Below, piece by piece: positions 1,030 through 7,102 of a stretch of 7,502 nt of DNA. Positions within the stretch are counted from its first letter, which is position 1. Every line of letters begins with the position of its first letter. This stretch comes from Candidatus Odinarchaeota archaeon (GTDB taxonomy: Archaea; Asgardarchaeota; JAGGXT01). The notes below the pieces were generated by a model. The model did not search any database, was not told the origin of the DNA, and saw nothing but the letters and a program-made list of their open reading frames with translations. The DNA lies in NCBI GenBank assembly GCA_021162905.1, contig JAGGXT010000316.1, positions 1-7,502 of the forward strand. The letters run 5' to 3'. The translations under genes were made by a program, and so were the position numbers.

Positions 1030-1102
1030 GCAAAAAACAGTTAGCGATTTAAAAAATAAGTATTAACTTTTTTAAATTAGAATCAATATTTTTTTATTTG
1101 CT

Positions 1103-1107
1103 GGTGA
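1103..1107 (+). promoter_or_regulatory. Shine-Dalgarno site deciding the TTG start at 1113
   Basis: GGTGA lies 5 nt before TTG at 1113. The same GGTGA-plus-5-nt layout precedes ATG at 4642, ATG at 5252 and, on the minus strand, ATG at 7102. This makes TTG 1113 a better start than the in-frame TTG at 1098, which would place the SD sequence inside the coding region. Confidence 0.6.
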
Positions 1108-1112
1108 GGTCT

Positions 1113-3284
1113 TTGTTTTTCAAGAAAAAAGTGAGAAAGGACATCGATAAGATTATTGGGGCGATTGAAAGCAAGAATCCTTCCGACGAATTAGAGGCCT
1201 CTTGGATAGTTTTAGATCTTATTAGAACTGAGAGATATAAGGAAGTTAAAAAGGAAGTCTTGTTTAAAGTCTTGTCAAGAAGTTTATATGAAAGCAATAC
1301 TAAGGATTTAAAGAGAACGGTGATGTTTGCGATTTCAGAATTATTTGCCAACGATTATTTCTCATTTGATCAAATATCTAATATTGCATTTCAAGCTTTT
1401 AGTGATGAGGATCCATATATCCGTCGTTCCTCAATGAAAATATTTCTTGAGGCAGTACGAAAACTGGTACTTCCAGTTTCCAAGATGAAAATTATTTTAG
1501 ATAAGGCCTTACGTGATAATGATGCTATCGTAAGGAAAACCGCAATTGATTTGATAGATTTTGTTATTTCTAATCCAGTTTATAGCTATTCTGATATACT
1601 AGAGTTGATAAAATGGAGTGTTTATACGGACACAAAAATGTATGATGATGCTCTCTCTTACGCTAAAGCCTTATTAGAACAATATATGGAGAACCCAGAT
1701 GTTGTTCGTGAGGCCATTTTAGATTTACTTGACGACAAAAATGGGGATGTCATAAAGATAGGAGAGGAGCTTCTTAATGACTTAATTAAAACCGGCTATT
1801 TCAAAAGTCCATCTGATATTCTGCCGTATTTAACTAAATCGTCGAGTATAAACTTTCTGCTTTTTAGGGATTTGGTTGATTTATTAATTTCATTTGAAGA
1901 TTTCAGTAAGGGGGACTTGTTGGATTTTGCTTATGAGTTGATAAATGACTCTGAAATTGAAAAAGTTAAGTCGGGTCTAATACTACTCTCAAATATTACA
2001 ATGTTTGATTGGGTCCCCTCAGATTTACTTGAGTTTTCAATCGATAAAGGACTTGAGGTAGCTGATACCAGAATTGAGACATTAAGATTAGTTGAGTCTT
2101 GTTTTTACAGCAAAAAAATCAAGAGAAGTGTGCTTTTTGAGAAGACCATAAGTTTACTTTCTTACTCTGATGAAAGTCTAAGGGAAGCAGTCATATATAC
2201 GCTCACAAATATGGGGAAGACCGAACCTAAATATGCTCAACATATAATTGAAACTGTCTATGAGTTATATAAAGAGGAAAAAATATCGAAGTACCTTATG
2301 TTGCATACCCTTTTTGAATTAAGCTTGCAAGCCCCTCTCTTTGATGAGAAAATTGTAATAAAGATAATTAAAGATCTTCTCAACGAAGAGTATGAGCCAT
2401 ATAGACGTGATGAGGTTGCTTCCAATATAGCGTTAATTGTCTGTCGGTTATCCGCAAAACCAGGATTTAATACAGAAACCATATATGACTTATTCGAAGG
2501 CGAAAAATTCACTGACAAGGAGTACAAATATACTGTTTTCAAAATTAATGTCTTGATTGAAATTGCAAGTTGTCTTATTGAGAGTGGCGTTTTCACACAA
2601 CACGATTTAGATAAGCTTCTAAATGTTCTCCCAGAGAATGTAGTTGTTTCAGTTCTTCTTCCCCTTCTTGTAGAAAAAAGCGAAAAAGACACAACTACCA
2701 CAGAGAAGTATATCTCCCTACTAAATAACGTAATTTTTGGAAGCAAAGATGAACGAGCAAGAGAAAAAGCAGTAGATACTTTAATTAGAATGTATGAGAA
2801 AGAACTCGTAGATAAAAATAGAATGTTCTCCATAATATATTCTCTCATGGCTCAACAAAACTCTAAAGAGGTACCACGTCTCGGTTTACTCTTGCTTGAG
2901 AACATAATAGACAAAAATATGAAAAATATTCTATACTCCTTTGAAATAAAGACGCTCATAGAGCTTGGCCTTAATAATGACTTTGTAGAGATAAAGAATC
3001 TAACAGAATACGTGTATAAGAAGTTCTTAGACTCTGAGTTGCTTCCTTTTGAAAAGAAAGTGAAAATAATAAATGACTGGATAATTGGTCGTTATACAAT
3101 CTCAGTAAAGCGGGGTGTTGCAAGGATGTTAAAGCAAATATCTGCATACTCTCTCTATCATCTGATAATTAACGGCCACGCTTTTCCTATGGACGACTTA
3201 AAGGAATACATACAACTACTGGATAGTGAAAGGGATGCCTATATAAACTCGATGATTAAAAAGATCAAAGAGTTTCTCACATAA
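1113..3284 (+). CDS. Large HEAT-repeat-like helical protein, function unknown
   Basis: This encodes a 723-aa protein from the TTG at 1113, chosen because of the GGTGA 5 nt upstream. The sequence is helical almost throughout. It shows a recurring pattern of paired helices of roughly 35-40 residues with DxxxxVRxxA-like turns: for example SDEDPYIRRSSMKIFLEA (about residues 100), RDNDAIVRKTAIDLID just after it, and DDKNGDVIKIGEELL further on. This is typical of HEAT/ARM alpha-solenoids, which act as protein-binding scaffolds. There is no signal peptide, membrane segment or catalytic motif, so a cytoplasmic scaffold or adaptor is the likely role. Repeats are diverged and charged, and the N terminus is basic (FFKKKVRK). 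It has its own promoter region and no tight operon partner: the SIS gene ends 133 bp before it and the regulator starts 68 bp after it. Specific partners cannot be inferred. Confidence 0.8.
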   Translation: MFFKKKVRKDIDKIIGAIESKNPSDELEASWIVLDLIRTERYKEVKKEVLFKVLSRSLYESNTKDLKRTVMFAISELFANDYFSFDQISNIAFQAFSDEDPYIRRSSMKIFLEAVRKLVLPVSKMKIILDKALRDNDAIVRKTAIDLIDFVISNPVYSYSDILELIKWSVYTDTKMYDDALSYAKALLEQYMENPDVVREAILDLLDDKNGDVIKIGEELLNDLIKTGYFKSPSDILPYLTKSSSINFLLFRDLVDLLISFEDFSKGDLLDFAYELINDSEIEKVKSGLILLSNITMFDWVPSDLLEFSIDKGLEVADTRIETLRLVESCFYSKKIKRSVLFEKTISLLSYSDESLREAVIYTLTNMGKTEPKYAQHIIETVYELYKEEKISKYLMLHTLFELSLQAPLFDEKIVIKIIKDLLNEEYEPYRRDEVASNIALIVCRLSAKPGFNTETIYDLFEGEKFTDKEYKYTVFKINVLIEIASCLIESGVFTQHDLDKLLNVLPENVVVSVLLPLLVEKSEKDTTTTEKYISLLNNVIFGSKDERAREKAVDTLIRMYEKELVDKNRMFSIIYSLMAQQNSKEVPRLGLLLLENIIDKNMKNILYSFEIKTLIELGLNNDFVEIKNLTEYVYKKFLDSELLPFEKKVKIINDWIIGRYTISVKRGVARMLKQISAYSLYHLIINGHAFPMDDLKEYIQLLDSERDAYINSMIKKIKEFLT

Positions 3285-3352: not shown

Positions 3353-3994
3353 ATGTCATTTAAGAGCCCACTAAAAAATCTAATTGAGATGATAGAAAAC
3401 TTTTGCAGAACGCATCCTCAATTAAAGCCGTACTTGATATTCCAAAGTATCTACGAAATAGGAAGCAAAAGTCGTATTGGTCGATATTCTCTCTCCAAAG
3501 AGATAGGTCTCAGTGAAAGCACTGCTAGAACCTTACTTAAATTCTTAAAGCGAGAAGGATTAATAATTTCGATTCCTAAGAGTGGGCATCGTCTGAGCGA
3601 TGTTGGGCTCGAGATTTTTGAGCATCTTAAGAAATATATTGGTAGCGTTAAGGAAATTGAAGAACTTGAAGAATTCAGACCTGCAAAATATGCAATTGGA
3701 ATTTTAATAAAGGGAGCATCTAAGTATATAAAAAAGGGATTAGAAGAGCGAGATGATGCTGTTAGAGCTGGAGCTAAAGGAGCTACAATTATTGTGTATG
3801 AGAGAAACACATTCTCAGTACCATCTGTTTATCCTGAGTTGGTGGGGGAAGAAAAAAATATTTTAATAAAAATTTTTTCACCAAGCGATGGTGACGTAAT
3901 AGCTATTGTTTTTGCAGACAATCGATCCTCTGTGAAACAAGCTGCGTTTGCTGTAGCCTATTATTTGCTGAAAAGAAAACTCGGAGTTAAATAG
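3353..3994 (+). CDS. Winged-helix transcriptional regulator with DUF4443-like C-terminal domain
   Basis: A 213-aa protein from ATG 3353; an in-frame TTG at 3344 is possible, and neither has a strong SD sequence. Residues about 28-95 form a winged helix-turn-helix: SLSKEIGLSESTARTLLKFL is the helix-turn-helix, followed by KREGLIISIPKSGHRLSDVG as wing. The C-terminal half (about 110-213) carries ERDDAVRAGAKGATIIVYE and then a GDVIAIVFAD strand. This is the kind of small ligand-binding domain seen in archaeal HTH proteins annotated DUF4443; I recall the family from its pattern and have not searched it. It ends 61 bp before the ECF S-component gene and is co-directional with it. The two known parts, DNA-binding and a likely ligand-sensing domain, make it the best local candidate to bind the operators at 4027 and 5215. 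That link is inferred from adjacency only. Confidence 0.8.
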   Translation: MSFKSPLKNLIEMIENFCRTHPQLKPYLIFQSIYEIGSKSRIGRYSLSKEIGLSESTARTLLKFLKREGLIISIPKSGHRLSDVGLEIFEHLKKYIGSVKEIEELEEFRPAKYAIGILIKGASKYIKKGLEERDDAVRAGAKGATIIVYERNTFSVPSVYPELVGEEKNILIKIFSPSDGDVIAIVFADNRSSVKQAAFAVAYYLLKRKLGVK

Positions 3995-4018
3995 ATAAAA
4001 AATAGACAAAAAAATTCA

Positions 4019-4026
4019 AATATATA
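4019..4026 (+). promoter_or_regulatory. TATA box of the ECF S-component operon
   Basis: AATATATA directly abuts the inverted repeat beginning at 4027. Standard archaeal spacing puts the transcript start at about 4047-4051, only a few bases before the ATG at 4056. With no SD sequence before that ATG, the mRNA is probably leaderless. Confidence 0.6.
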
Positions 4027-4047
4027 ACTAGGATAACTTATCCTAGT
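4027..4047 (+). promoter_or_regulatory. Operator 1: perfect 10-bp inverted repeat with 1-nt centre
   Basis: ACTAGGATAA and its exact reverse complement TTATCCTAGT flank a single C. Beyond the perfect repeat, positions 4022-4025 and 4049-4052 also pair after one mismatch. The site fills the space between the TATA box and the expected start site, where a bound dimer would block RNA polymerase or transcription factor B, so repression is the likely mode. The same arms recur at 5215-5235. Both arms pair with no loop, which argues for a dimeric protein site in DNA and against an RNA hairpin. Confidence 0.85.
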
Positions 4048-4055
4048 GATATGTA

Positions 4056-4661
4056 ATGTTCAGACTGCCTTCGAAAACGAGGTCCATAGAAGTTGCAGCA
4101 ATTTCTGTCTTCACAGCTTTATCTATTGGTGGTGCTTACGCATTAGCTGTCATCCCAAATGTTGAATTGATGAGTTTATTTGTCTTCACAGCCGGATTCT
4201 TATTTGGAGTACACGTAGGAGCTGTCGTTGGTTTATTCTCCATGCTAATATATACAATTTGGAACCCTTGGGGTTCTCCTATCATTGTAATTTCCATTGC
4301 TCAAATAATAGGCATGGTGACATTTGGAGTTGCAGGTGGAATTTATGGGAGGCGATGGAACGATAAACATGATATAACATTCCTTAATATGCTGGAAATT
4401 GGAATTACAGCTGGATTTCTAACCCTCTTTTATGATTGTATCACAAATATAGCTTATGCTGCAGCTTTTGGCCTATTAGATGCGCTAATTATAGTTTTTA
4501 TTATGGGATCCATTTTTATGATTGTTCACACGATTTCCAACATAGCATTCTTTACAATTTTTATAGGACCGTTGGTGCGAATTGCAGATAATTTTGAAGA
4601 GTATTTGAGAAAGAGCGGTGACAAAGCTTTAGGTGATAGTTATGAAAATCGAAAATCTTAG
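4056..4661 (+). CDS. ECF transporter S component (substrate-binding membrane subunit), probable corrinoid/vitamin uptake
   Basis: A 201-aa integral membrane protein with about six hydrophobic segments (roughly residues 10-32, 36-53, 55-70, 76-97, 110-140 and 143-175). The stretch NVELMSLFVFTAGFLFG, then HVGAVVGLFSMLIYTIWNPWG, is characteristic of S components of energy-coupling-factor importers, which bind a vitamin or metal and work with a shared EcfT/EcfA1/EcfA2 module. No EcfA ATPase or EcfT gene is seen here, so the energising module must be elsewhere (group II arrangement). The start is ATG 4056; an ATG at 4051 is followed at once by a stop. The gene overlaps the DUF4430 gene by 20 nt. 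DUF4430 proteins paired with S components are associated with cobalamin ECF importers, so cobalamin is the favoured substrate, but another vitamin is possible. Confidence 0.85.
   Translation: MFRLPSKTRSIEVAAISVFTALSIGGAYALAVIPNVELMSLFVFTAGFLFGVHVGAVVGLFSMLIYTIWNPWGSPIIVISIAQIIGMVTFGVAGGIYGRRWNDKHDITFLNMLEIGITAGFLTLFYDCITNIAYAAAFGLLDALIIVFIMGSIFMIVHTISNIAFFTIFIGPLVRIADNFEEYLRKSGDKALGDSYENRKS
4631..4636 (+). promoter_or_regulatory. Shine-Dalgarno site of the DUF4430 gene
   Basis: AGGTGA lies inside the end of the S-component gene, 5 nt before ATG 4642. It favours this ATG over the in-frame GTG at 4633, which overlaps the SD sequence itself. Confidence 0.65.
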
Positions 4662-5097
4662 AATATTATTAGCTGGGTTATTGCTGATTGTTATCATTTC
4701 AACATTAGCTTTTGTTTACTTGACATATAAACCATATCCATATACTAATGGGAATATAGAGCAAAAACCAAATAGCGAAATCAAGCCAGCCTACAATTTA
4801 ACTTTGATAATTGACTATGGTAACGGAACAATTGAGGTTCACTACAATCTGAATCTTACAAATGTGCCTAATATAACAGCATTTCATATTCTATTCTTGG
4901 TAGCCACTGTAAATTATACCTGGTACGGAGATGATGTCTTTGTTGATGCAATAAATGGTGTATGGAATAATGAGAATGACAATAACAGATGGTGGCAATA
5001 TTGGGTTGATGACGAATTGCCGATGATTGCTGCAAACCATTACTACCTCAAGAATAATAGTGTAGTGGCGTGGAGATACTGGACACCACAAGTATAG
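4642..5097 (+). CDS. Membrane-anchored DUF4430 (transcobalamin-like) surface protein
   Basis: A 151-aa protein. Residues about 7-28 are a hydrophobic signal anchor, so the rest faces outside the cell. The globular part begins LTLIIDYGNG (about 53-62) and contains FVDAINGVWNN (about 100-110), RWWQYWVDDELP (about 116-127) and VVAWRYWTPQ near the C terminus. This is the signature order of DUF4430, which is related to the C-terminal beta domain of transcobalamin/intrinsic factor. Six N-X-S/T sequons (N52, N61, N71, N77, N91, N138) fit an archaeal glycosylated ectodomain. It is translationally coupled to the S component by a 20-nt overlap, consistent with capturing a ligand, probably a corrinoid, and handing it to the S component. 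The start is set by AGGTGA 5 nt before the ATG. Family call is good; the ligand is inferred. Confidence 0.85.
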   Translation: MKIENLRILLAGLLLIVIISTLAFVYLTYKPYPYTNGNIEQKPNSEIKPAYNLTLIIDYGNGTIEVHYNLNLTNVPNITAFHILFLVATVNYTWYGDDVFVDAINGVWNNENDNNRWWQYWVDDELPMIAANHYYLKNNSVVAWRYWTPQV

Positions 5098-5160
5098 ATG
5101 ATAATTTGTTGCAAGTCTTTTATAATTCTAGTTAAGGAGTTTTCTTTATCAGCAGATATT

Positions 5161-5193
5161 AATTGCCTAAGGAGGCAATTTCTTTAATTTTTT
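5161..5193 (+). terminator. Hairpin terminator after the ECF-S/DUF4430 operon
   Basis: AATTGCC (5161-5167) pairs perfectly with GGCAATT (5174-5180) around the loop TAAGGA, and T-rich sequence up to 5193 follows. It separates the transporter operon from the separately promoted surface-protein gene. The remaining sequence from 5098 to 5160 holds no gene or clear signal. Confidence 0.6.
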
Positions 5194-5202
5194 GTAGATA
5201 GA

Positions 5203-5212
5203 TTTTTATTTA
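5203..5212 (+). promoter_or_regulatory. TATA box of the anchored surface-protein gene
   Basis: TTTTTATTTA, ending 2 bp before the second inverted repeat, would start transcription at about 5234, giving a leader of about 18 nt that contains the SD sequence. The layout of TATA then operator matches that at 4019-4047. Confidence 0.5.
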
Positions 5213-5214
5213 AA

Positions 5215-5235
5215 ACTAGGATAATTTATCCTAGT
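5215..5235 (+). promoter_or_regulatory. Operator 2: second copy of the perfect inverted repeat
   Basis: The arms ACTAGGATAA and TTATCCTAGT are identical to those of operator 1; only the central base differs (T here, C there). It sits between the TATA box and the SD sequence of the next gene, in the same repressor-like position. Two copies of a 20-bp specified sequence 1.2 kb apart, each just after a TATA box, cannot reasonably be chance. Confidence 0.85.
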
Positions 5236-5239
5236 TTTT

Positions 5240-5246
5240 GAGGTGA
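5240..5246 (+). promoter_or_regulatory. Shine-Dalgarno site of the surface-protein gene
   Basis: GAGGTGA ends 5 nt before ATG 5252. This favours ATG 5252 over the in-frame GTG at 5243 that lies within the SD sequence, and yields a cleaner signal peptide. Confidence 0.65.
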
Positions 5247-5251
5247 AAAAT

Positions 5252-5950
5252 ATGAAATGTCCCAAAAAAGTATCCGCGATTATAATCATGTTGATAACTT
5301 TAAGTTTGCTCACTCAACCTGTAGCTGTATTTGGCAATAATATAGAATGGGGCGTAAAGGAAGGTGATACGATTACATGGACTGTTGTCATAGCTCCGAA
5401 TACTACATTTTGGTGGTGGGACCCAGTTACTGGTCTCGTAAAGGTTAAGGTGAACGAAGGGGACATAATGGAGTATAACATTACAAAAATAGACGATGAT
5501 ACACTATACGGTGATTTTAAGATAGGGAATCTAACAGTAGCGAATGTAACAACAGATACTATTGGCATGAATCTCGTCTTTGGATTATGGCCATTTATCA
5601 CAGGTCCTGTTGTTAAACCAGATTGGCAGAATATAACATCTAAGGCTGAGGACTGTAATGTTAAGACAATAGAAGAAAGTAACTTTGAATGGTATCTTGG
5701 GCTACCAAGAAATGTGATAACATTTGCGAATGAGACAGATAGTGGAGCATTTAGGCTTGTGTATGAGAAAAGTACAGGAGTTATGCTTTATGGCTACGGA
5801 AGATTTGGAAAATATGAATTAGGTGTAGAGATCAAGTCAACAACAGTATCTCTTGGTGTTAGCGAGATCCTCTATATTGTCGTTGGTGTCCCAATAATTG
5901 TAATAATAGCTATAGTTATAGCAAGTATGTTTATTAAGAAAAAAGAATAA
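5252..5950 (+). CDS. Signal-peptide, C-terminally anchored surface protein co-regulated with the ECF importer
   Basis: A 232-aa protein. It has a signal peptide (MKCPKK, then a hydrophobic core to about residue 22, likely cleaved near VFG at 26-28), an ectodomain (about 30-203), and a C-terminal membrane helix (about 206-227) ending in the basic KKKE. The ectodomain starts with EGDTITWTV, has an aromatic cluster FWWWDP (53-58), six N-X-T sequons (N50, N76, N93, N98, N127, N160), and a late STGVMLYGYGRF segment. This layout resembles archaeal choice-of-anchor surface proteins of unknown function, such as the anchor S group; I am moderately unsure of that name. Its own promoter carries the same operator as the ECF-S/DUF4430 operon, so it probably serves the same pathway, for example as an extra surface ligand-binding protein. 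No enzyme motif is seen. It ends 5 bp from the convergent methyltransferase gene. Confidence 0.8.
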   Translation: MKCPKKVSAIIIMLITLSLLTQPVAVFGNNIEWGVKEGDTITWTVVIAPNTTFWWWDPVTGLVKVKVNEGDIMEYNITKIDDDTLYGDFKIGNLTVANVTTDTIGMNLVFGLWPFITGPVVKPDWQNITSKAEDCNVKTIEESNFEWYLGLPRNVITFANETDSGAFRLVYEKSTGVMLYGYGRFGKYELGVEIKSTTVSLGVSEILYIVVGVPIIVIIAIVIASMFIKKKE

Positions 5951-5954
5951 CTCC

Positions 5955-5968
5955 TTTATTTTTTTCTT
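5955..5968 (+). terminator. T-rich tract at the end of the surface-protein gene
   Basis: TTTATTTTTTTCTT starts 5 bp after the stop codon, long enough to act as an archaeal oligo-T terminator without a hairpin. It overlaps the 3' end of the opposing methyltransferase gene. The A-rich end of this gene (5935-5949) would read as a T-rich tract for the opposing transcript, so the junction may terminate both ways. Confidence 0.4.
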
Positions 5969-6657
5969 AAAATAAGAAGAAGCGCAGGGGTTTTTTTATC
6001 ATGTGAGAATACAGGACCAAAACTTTCTTTTTTTATAAGAGTAAACCCCACTTTTTCTAAAATTCCCATAAACTCTTCAAAATTTAGTCCAACTTGGGGT
6101 TCATAAAAGAGTATTCTTCCGTTTGGCTTTAAAACACGCCAATTTTCTCTTAAAAGCACTTCCCATGATTTTCTATCAATATCATGAAACGCCCATACAT
6201 ATGTAACATAATCAAAATACCCATCTGGAAATGGTAGTTTCTTAGATGACCTAATAGAAACAAGTTTAAATCTATCACCCAACTTATAAAGCTCTTTAAA
6301 TTTCAAACCAACATTAATTCTCTGCTCATCAATGTCTACACCTATATAGGTACATTTCTTCTTATTTACTAATATAACTCCCAGATAGCCATAGCCGCAT
6401 CCTATATCAAGTACTGTTGTCTTTTCCTTTATGTACTTACTAACGATAGCTTCACGTTCGCTTAGATAAATTATATGTGATTTAAAGTCATCTATATTAC
6501 CGCCAAATCTTAACATACCACTAATAATCGCTAGAGAGCCATATAGAAAGCCAAAATCACTTAAGAATTTATATAGCTCCTCATCAGTGTTAAAGATTTT
6601 CTTTGCAAGATTTATAAAATCTAAAGTTTTCTTCCTTAAGAAATTTGCCTCACCCAT
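5956..6657 (-). CDS. Class I SAM-dependent methyltransferase
   Basis: A 233-aa protein with the Rossmann-type methyltransferase motifs in order: motif I VLDIGCGYG (residues 82-90), which binds SAM; the acidic strand end YIGVDID (104-110), where D108 would hold the ribose hydroxyls; LPFPDGYFDYVTYVWAFHDI (141-160), the post-adenine and catalytic-face region; and LKPNGRILFYEP (176-187). The N-terminal ~75 residues are helical and may form the substrate cap. It groups with the broad Methyltransf_11/25-like type; small-molecule, lipid or quinone substrates are possible and cannot be chosen. The start at ATG 6657 is supported by GAGGT 6 nt upstream on the minus strand. The frame stays open a further 72 codons upstream, so a longer form is not excluded. 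It is separated from the upstream 79-aa gene by 205 bp and probably has its own promoter. Confidence 0.85.
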   Translation of the reverse strand: MGEANFLRKKTLDFINLAKKIFNTDEELYKFLSDFGFLYGSLAIISGMLRFGGNIDDFKSHIIYLSEREAIVSKYIKEKTTVLDIGCGYGYLGVILVNKKKCTYIGVDIDEQRINVGLKFKELYKLGDRFKLVSIRSSKKLPFPDGYFDYVTYVWAFHDIDRKSWEVLLRENWRVLKPNGRILFYEPQVGLNFEEFMGILEKVGFTLIKKESFGPVFSHDKKTPALLLILRKK

Positions 6658-6837
6658 TCTTAAACCTCGTATAGTTGTAACTTTATGGGAAGTGAAATCT
6701 TCATAATTATTTAGGAGATATACTTCTTCATTAACTATTATACAATACTCTCTCTCATAATTATAGTTTCCGATAGTGCTAATTTTGAGAAAATATAATA
6801 ACATAACATAATAAATTCTAAATTGCACATTAGAGAG

Positions 6838-6851
6838 ATAAAAAAAGAAAC
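6838..6851 (-). terminator. T-rich tract after the 79-aa gene
   Basis: On the minus strand a TTTCTTTTTTTATC tract begins about 11 nt after the TGA of the 79-aa gene. It is a plausible oligo-T terminator separating that gene from the methyltransferase. The rest of 6658-6837 is AT-rich, with several TATA-like stretches on the minus strand (for example AAGTATATC near 6715-6722) but no gene I would call. Confidence 0.35.
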
Positions 6852-6862
6852 AGGATGTGCTT

Positions 6863-7102
6863 TCAGAGTTCATAGATTTTTACTTTTCCCTGCTCCTTGA
6901 AAACTTCGAACTCTTTATTGTCTATAACTATGTACGCTTTTACTTTTGCGTTTGTCAATATCTTAGACTTTACTATATCGGCAAAGAGATCAAAAGCAGC
7001 ACCAATAGTCCTAATATCCTCATCATAAAATTTAGTAGCATCTTCTATTTTTATCTTCTCAGTATAAAATTCTCTATAAAGAGAGGAAAGAAAGGTTCTC
7101 AT
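6863..7102 (-). CDS. Small 79-aa protein of unknown function
   Basis: A 79-aa protein starting at ATG 7102, which has AGGTGA 5 nt upstream (7108-7113 on the minus strand); an in-frame GTG at 7111 lies inside the SD sequence and is rejected. The sequence appears to have an N-terminal helical half (about residues 1-50, including TIGAAFDLFADIVKSKI) followed by a beta hairpin (KVKAYIVIDNKEFEVFKEQGKVKIYEL). It has no membrane segment, signal or cysteine cluster. I do not recognise the family. Its start lies 20 nt from the stop of the 50-aa membrane protein gene, so the two are probably co-transcribed and may work together. Confidence 0.65.
   Translation of the reverse strand: MRTFLSSLYREFYTEKIKIEDATKFYDEDIRTIGAAFDLFADIVKSKILTNAKVKAYIVIDNKEFEVFKEQGKVKIYEL

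Follow-up and report, generated by a model that had tools for sequence, protein, structure and literature searches.

A putative palindromic operator shared by probable vitamin B12 genes of Asgard archaea, with a DUF4443 winged-helix protein as candidate regulator

The window, by which we mean the whole 7,502-nucleotide stretch analysed here (contig JAGGXT010000316.1 of a Candidatus Odinarchaeota archaeon), carries a row of four genes on its forward strand. The first (3353..3994, +) encodes a winged-helix protein of the DUF4443 family (PF14544, 5e-21, plus winged-helix families), a candidate B12-responsive repressor. It stops 32 bp ahead of a perfect 21-bp palindrome, operator 1 (ACTAGGATAA-C-TTATCCTAGT; 4027..4047, +), which lies between a TATA-like element (aaatatata; 4018..4026, +) and the start codon of an ECF transporter S component (ECF-S; 4056..4661, +), the first gene of an operon with a membrane-anchored DUF4430 protein (4642..5097, +; PF14478, 2e-11). 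Operator 2 (ACTAGGATAA-T-TTATCCTAGT; 5215..5235, +) is likewise an exact match and lies between a second TATA-like element (tttatttaaa; 5205..5214, +) and the start codon of a membrane-anchored surface protein (5252..5950, +). Eight bp separate operator 1 from the ECF-S ATG at 4056, and 16 bp separate operator 2 from the surface-protein ATG at 5252, for which a GTG at 5243 is an alternative start.

Neither arm of either palindrome contains a mismatch. A first-pass annotation of this DNA had described two copies with identical arms and a varying central base, placed right after the TATA boxes of two transcription units; the copies proved exact, with C or T at the centre, and the placement was borne out, the TATA-like sequences being recognized by eye. 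Its gene labels also held, DUF4430 by Pfam and ECF-S by a match to PDB 6fnp. When up to 3 mismatches were allowed, the window held no copies besides 4027-4047 and 5215-5235, and so none ahead of the start of the DUF4443 gene itself, and 200 dinucleotide shuffles of the window gave 0 matches. The two window palindromes are real and perfect and did not arise by chance. Elsewhere in the window, a 728-aa open reading frame with weak HEAT-repeat matches lies upstream of the regulator gene (1098-3284, +), and a convergent gene for a SAM-dependent methyltransferase (5956-6873, –) ends 5 bp from the surface-protein stop codon; we saw no connection between the latter and the regulon.

The nutrient handled by these genes is probably vitamin B12. 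The ECF-S protein had 0 Pfam matches, and its best match of known structure was PDB 6fnp (E = 2.5e-4 as a single sequence, and 1.6e-8 in a profile search in which RibU came second at 0.12), so that by sequence it appears closer to CbrT than to other S components of known structure. PDB 6FNP is given as the ECF-CbrT B12 transporter in PMC5997447. This is the solved structure nearest to the window S component, for which cobalamin import is a prediction; none of the 8 window proteins scanned was an Ecf module. For DUF4430, the sequence profile gave weak matches at best against the PDB (E ≥ 0.086), with no transcobalamin among them, and a fold search was used for this reason. Foldseek with the structure model (pLDDT 80.9) returned 3u7z first and then transcobalamin, haptocorrin and intrinsic factor at E values of about 1e-4 to 2e-3 (5no0, TMt 0.69; 2bb6, E = 1.1e-4; 2pmv, E = 8e-4). 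As modelled, DUF4430 thus takes the fold of the transcobalamin/intrinsic factor beta domain, with 9-17% identity in the transcobalamin-type matches listed, and corrinoid binding is predicted from this likeness. The animal transcobalamin-type proteins are longer than DUF4430 and have an extra domain. Together, the CbrT-like S component and the transcobalamin-like model suggest that the window proteins bind and move a corrinoid.

The surface protein matched 0 Pfam families and has, by eye, a signal-like start and a C-terminal membrane helix. It aligned with 11 proteins from operons of this kind in other Asgard genomes at 21-44% identity. All four window proteins could be aligned with homologues, 10 to 16 others each, and identity to the window copy was 26-59% for DUF4430, 27-39% for ECF-S and 23-31% for DUF4443. 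At Thor-type loci (L125, L200, L202 and others), one palindrome is followed by DUF4430, the surface protein, ECF-S and DUF4443 in a single gene run. In the window, this four-gene set is broken into DUF4443, ECF-S/DUF4430 and the surface protein, with palindromes heading the two transport pieces. This split explains why two separate units of the window have one common operator.

We searched for the palindrome in other genomes. The pattern TAGGATAA-N-TTATCCTA was found exactly in 46 stretches of the whole genome collection, of which 14 were Asgard by record title, in 11 of the 227 Asgard genomes; bacterial stretches were among the others. By a rough calculation, 257 billion bases of even composition should contain about 60 chance matches, which leaves the Asgard excess as the only meaningful signal. 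A broader pattern suggested by these Asgard sites, TAGGATA-N3-TATCCTA, occurred exactly in 45/227 Asgard genomes with 64 matches (two overlapping in G196), compared to 5/227 for its reversed-letter control. The part conserved in other genomes is the inner 17 bp, and the outer AC/GT pairs are lost at most of the other sites displayed. With one mismatch allowed, sites were found in 70/227 genomes, a set that we left unclassified because the reversed control also matched 28 genomes (counted by eye); 20 regions were fetched mainly for such sites, and L236 alone was used. An exact site in ANME-1, ahead of a Mg-chelatase/VWA protein (L013:948-964), was treated as chance, since 1 of the 58 genomes of that class has a site and that one genome (G012) had no DUF4443 match.

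To approach the same question from the protein side, we started from homologues of the window ECF-S protein, which were present in 133/227 Asgard genomes. The operons read numbered 84, from 83 of these 133 genomes plus the window, with G170 dropped at a contig edge. An upstream palindrome with at most 2 mismatches was present at 50/84 (20 exact, 18 with one mismatch and 12 with two), a fraction that overstates the rate because the operons read took in every one of the 19 genomes in which ECF-S has an exact upstream match; a conservative count is at least 49 of the 133 genomes. Among upstream regions taken from these loci as controls, 6/374 had the palindrome (Fisher p = 3e-37 versus the ECF-S operons), a comparison that favours the operons, which had a mean of 2.4 upstream regions each against one per control region. 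The permuted-motif control is free of this bias: 40 permuted palindromes were found at no more than 2 of the 84 operons each, and the reversed palindrome at 0/84.

The genes behind the sites point to B12 as well. We gathered the regions around all 64 exact matches and clustered the encoded proteins. B12-type genes were headed by 37 of the matches: the first gene was DUF4430 at 19, a corrinoid protein at 5, and ECF-S or the surface protein at 3, while 5 lay between divergent BtuF and CobT genes, 2 ahead of BtuF alone, and one each ahead of another ECF-S, CobT alone and DUF4443. Pfam on representative targets identified Peripla_BP_2, FecCD, ABC ATPase, aminotransferase, CobD_Cbib, CbiZ, CobS, B12-binding and URO-D families; CobT, which had no Pfam match at 1e-5, was assigned by TIGR00303. 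CobT exceeded its family cut-off in 16/227 Asgard genomes, and GGATAA-N-TTATCC (at most one mismatch) lay within 300 bp upstream of the CobT match at 11 of the 16 loci and at 0/4 sub-threshold loci, a count made without a matched control. At some divergent BtuF-CobT promoters of Jord-type genomes (L180:5985, L182:6050, L183:5962 and L193:5987), a second, degenerate palindrome lies 19 bp away near its own TATA-like box (in L180 and L193 as judged by eye).

B12-type sites were present under the titles Jord-, Odin-, Baldr-, Sigyn-, Loki- and Thorarchaeota, as contigs or as genomes; where Thor, Loki or Jord serves here as a class label for other genomes, it was deduced from the named loci and the order of listing. 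The regulon thus extends beyond the source organism to other Asgard lineages. The first-pass annotation had proposed that the shared palindrome is an operator defining a regulon, and the scan of related genomes upholds this, as Asgard genomes show an enrichment of the motif, which recurs upstream of ECF-S/DUF4430 orthologues, with most exact matches ahead of B12-type genes. The element is dyad-symmetric, lies near the promoters of linked genes, recurs across species and is rare elsewhere, as is characteristic of a vitamin-regulon operator. Naming B12 as the nutrient, and DUF4443 as the regulator (see below), goes beyond the earlier reading.

These targets also bear on what is sensed. Siderophores and haem are further cargoes of FecCD/Peripla_BP_2 transporters. 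A regulon that senses cobalt, another tetrapyrrole or a metal instead of finished corrinoid would fit this lack of exclusiveness, and would fit the resemblance of the DNA-binding half of DUF4443 to MntR-type regulators. However, the targets include proteins of corrinoid salvage and use (CobT, CbiB, CbiZ, CobS and B12-binding), and the window has a CbrT-like S component and a transcobalamin-like fold. We therefore regard the metal or tetrapyrrole reading as quite improbable.

The other 27 of the 64 exact matches lay outside recognized B12 genes: 8 at a methyltransferase cluster, 6 at the ends of genes, in two contexts that recur, one at L208, which is cut off by the end of its contig and has the neighbours of the DUF4430 operon, and 12 single cases. 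In eight Thor-type regions (L206, L209, L212, L215, L216, L219, L222 and L225), the palindrome lies 5-119 bp ahead of the methyltransferase cluster; the one copy scanned with Pfam was UbiE-like and included a Trm112-like zinc ribbon. The preceding gene there is a small one (91-117 aa) or, in L209 and L216, a TrmB-like one (by eye). The palindromes at gene 3' ends form one set at L204:6012, L217:3758 and L220:5978 and another at L218:6030, L221:937 and L224:6055; in L204, the genes before the site include those for two ABC-ATPase-cluster proteins and for one protein each of the CbiQ/EcfT and photolyase families.

If the palindrome worked as RNA, as a riboswitch or terminator hairpin, or were a dispersed repeat, these six Thor-type sites at gene 3' ends instead of promoters would be expected. 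Against this, Rfam identified no relevant RNA in the window, all 42 of 42 oriented sites lay within 140 bp of a start codon (which was the condition for counting them), the window holds two copies only, and the flanks look unrelated between many sites (by eye, at sites chosen as exact). We consider a role as RNA or repeat highly improbable. A B12 riboswitch in particular was rejected, as no cobalamin riboswitch covariance match was found in the window.

We then considered the direction of control from the arrangement of promoter elements. At the 25 oriented sites of ECF-S/DUF4430 operons, the highest-scoring TATA-like 8-mer within 45 bp upstream of the operator reached 7-8 of 8 in 23/25 and started 8-28 bp ahead of the operator in 25/25; downstream 8-mers scoring 7-8 were found at 8/25. 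The operator thus lies just downstream of a TATA-like box in most of these operons, which suggests repression, and a bound dimer would cover the start-site region, which is in line with it. This asymmetry was absent from 13 sites of BtuF/CobT genes, mostly divergent promoters, and from 4 sites of corrinoid-protein genes, where TATA-like 8-mers scored about equally on the upstream and downstream sides. In a Loki-like group (L299-L317 and others), the site upstream of ECF-S reads TAGG-N8-CCTA, with a spacer one base shorter than in TAGG-N9-CCTA elsewhere. It was present at 15/28 Loki-like operons versus 3/111 controls, an exploratory count because the spacer was spotted by eye and counted on the same sequences, with the 28 genomes also grouped by eye. 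Several of these sites abut the TATA-like box on its upstream side (by eye). The earlier proposal of repression, based on the position between TATA box and start site, accordingly fits the ECF-S/DUF4430 operons; the arrangement is not distinctive at the BtuF/CobT and corrinoid-protein genes, and it does not extend to the Loki-like site.

Archaeal activators usually bind upstream of the TATA box. The Loki-like arrangement would suit a bound regulator that acts as an activator and is required for expression under B12 scarcity. However, both the window and the ECF-S/DUF4430 operons of other lineages have the site between the TATA-like box and the start codon, as is typical of repressors, and we consider activation unlikely. 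Repression is the sign of control that we infer from the order of TATA-like box and operator.

The best candidate for the protein that binds the operator is DUF4443, a choice suggested by gene neighbourhood. The window copy scored 74.9 bits against a family cut-off of 27 and is 99% identical to a protein of Candidatus Asgardarchaeum sp. Its profile matched PDB 2p8t (PH0730) at 6.7e-30, followed by CggR/MntR-type DNA-binding domains, and 2p8t was also found by fold (7.4e-12). By profile and fold, the window regulator is a member of the PH0730/DUF4443 family, with an N-terminal winged helix. The effector half resembles the GAD domain of AspRS, not a known B12 sensor, and the fold therefore does not reveal the ligand. 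The literature searched contained no mention of DUF4443 and gave the family neither a function nor a DNA site, and PH0730 was not mentioned among the literature matches listed.

DUF4443 was present in 162/227 Asgard genomes and lay within 2 kb of ECF-S in at least 47. Many of the loci read have DUF4443 and ECF-S/DUF4430 in one operon behind the site, and an exact site lay within 3.5 kb of DUF4443 in at least 18 of the 45 exact-site genomes. In two named Loki genomes (L142 and L143), DUF4443 lies among unrelated-looking genes, as judged by eye. A DUF4443 gene was found in 40/45 exact-site genomes; the five without a match (G004, G006, G015, G183 and G206) are perhaps incomplete MAGs.

Some of these distributions would be accommodated by a B12 regulon whose site is bound by a different transcription factor, with DUF4443 a mere neighbour. 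DUF4443 is missing from those five site-bearing genomes, it is commoner overall than the exact site, and in Jord-type genomes it lies on different contigs from the BtuF/CobT sites. We nevertheless find this explanation unlikely in view of the operons and close linkage described above. Also, of the 8 window proteins scanned, DUF4443 alone matched a DNA-binding domain, and in G013, where ECF-S and DUF4443 are divergent, TTGGATAA-N-TTATCCAA lies between the two genes.

Given the recurrence of the site, its target genes, the gene neighbourhood and the folds, all of which were computed, we give a probability of roughly 70% to the reading that the palindrome is a B12 (corrinoid) operator of Asgard archaea, most likely bound by a DUF4443 dimer, with corrinoid-dependent repression of genes for capture, import and reuse; binder, ligand and sign are the putative parts of it. 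The winged-helix dimer would most likely bind the palindrome. When corrinoid is plentiful, DUF4443 would occupy the gap between TATA box and start site and block transcription. When corrinoid is short, DUF4443 would be released, and the DUF4430 capture protein, its partner surface protein and the CbrT-like ECF S component would be made. In other Asgard lineages, corrinoid shortage may also release BtuFCD, the salvage enzymes CobT, CbiB, CbiZ and CobS, and corrinoid methyltransferases.

If this is true, it would provide a function for DUF4443, a regulator family present in well over half of the Asgard genomes, and, with the operator sequence supplied, would make B12 sensing in Asgard archaea testable. 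It would also point to a free-standing archaeal counterpart of the beta domain of human B12 carriers, with which corrinoid capture would begin in the closest archaeal relatives of eukaryotes. The Loki-like sites hint that operator half-sites persist while the spacer shifts between lineages.

An archaeal precedent bears on how new this operator is. In 2003, Rodionov et al. (J Biol Chem 278:41148) reportedly predicted a CBL-box upstream of cobalamin genes in some archaea, together with a hypothetical B12 regulator. Like that box, the Asgard site is a DNA signal that lies upstream of cobalamin transport and salvage genes, and the two may be the same or different sites. What is added here is a regulator candidate, a list of Asgard targets and a transcobalamin-like capture protein. 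The possible overlap with the CBL-box therefore lowers the novelty of the operator, and that of the regulator and the Asgard regulon less so; among the literature matches listed, none described a cobalamin regulon or regulator for Asgard archaea. A more specific proposal, to which we give somewhat less than even odds, is that DUF4443 is the archaeal B12 repressor reportedly predicted since 2003, that it senses corrinoid via its GAD-like C-terminal domain, and that it controls B12 capture at the Asgard cell surface, where a free-standing relative of the transcobalamin/intrinsic-factor beta domain would hand corrinoid to a CbrT-like ECF importer.

Among archaeal vitamin regulators, RbkR (riboflavin) and ThiR (thiamin) combine a helix-turn-helix with a small-molecule domain and control vitamin genes via a DNA site. 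DUF4443 is alike in this plan of helix-turn-helix plus effector domain and differs in the effector domain and in the vitamin, here B12; the RbkR-DNA complex 5trd was a weak fold match to DUF4443 (TMq 0.27). In bacteria, the B12 riboswitch controls similar kinds of genes. That element is RNA, whereas the Asgard site is a DNA operator.
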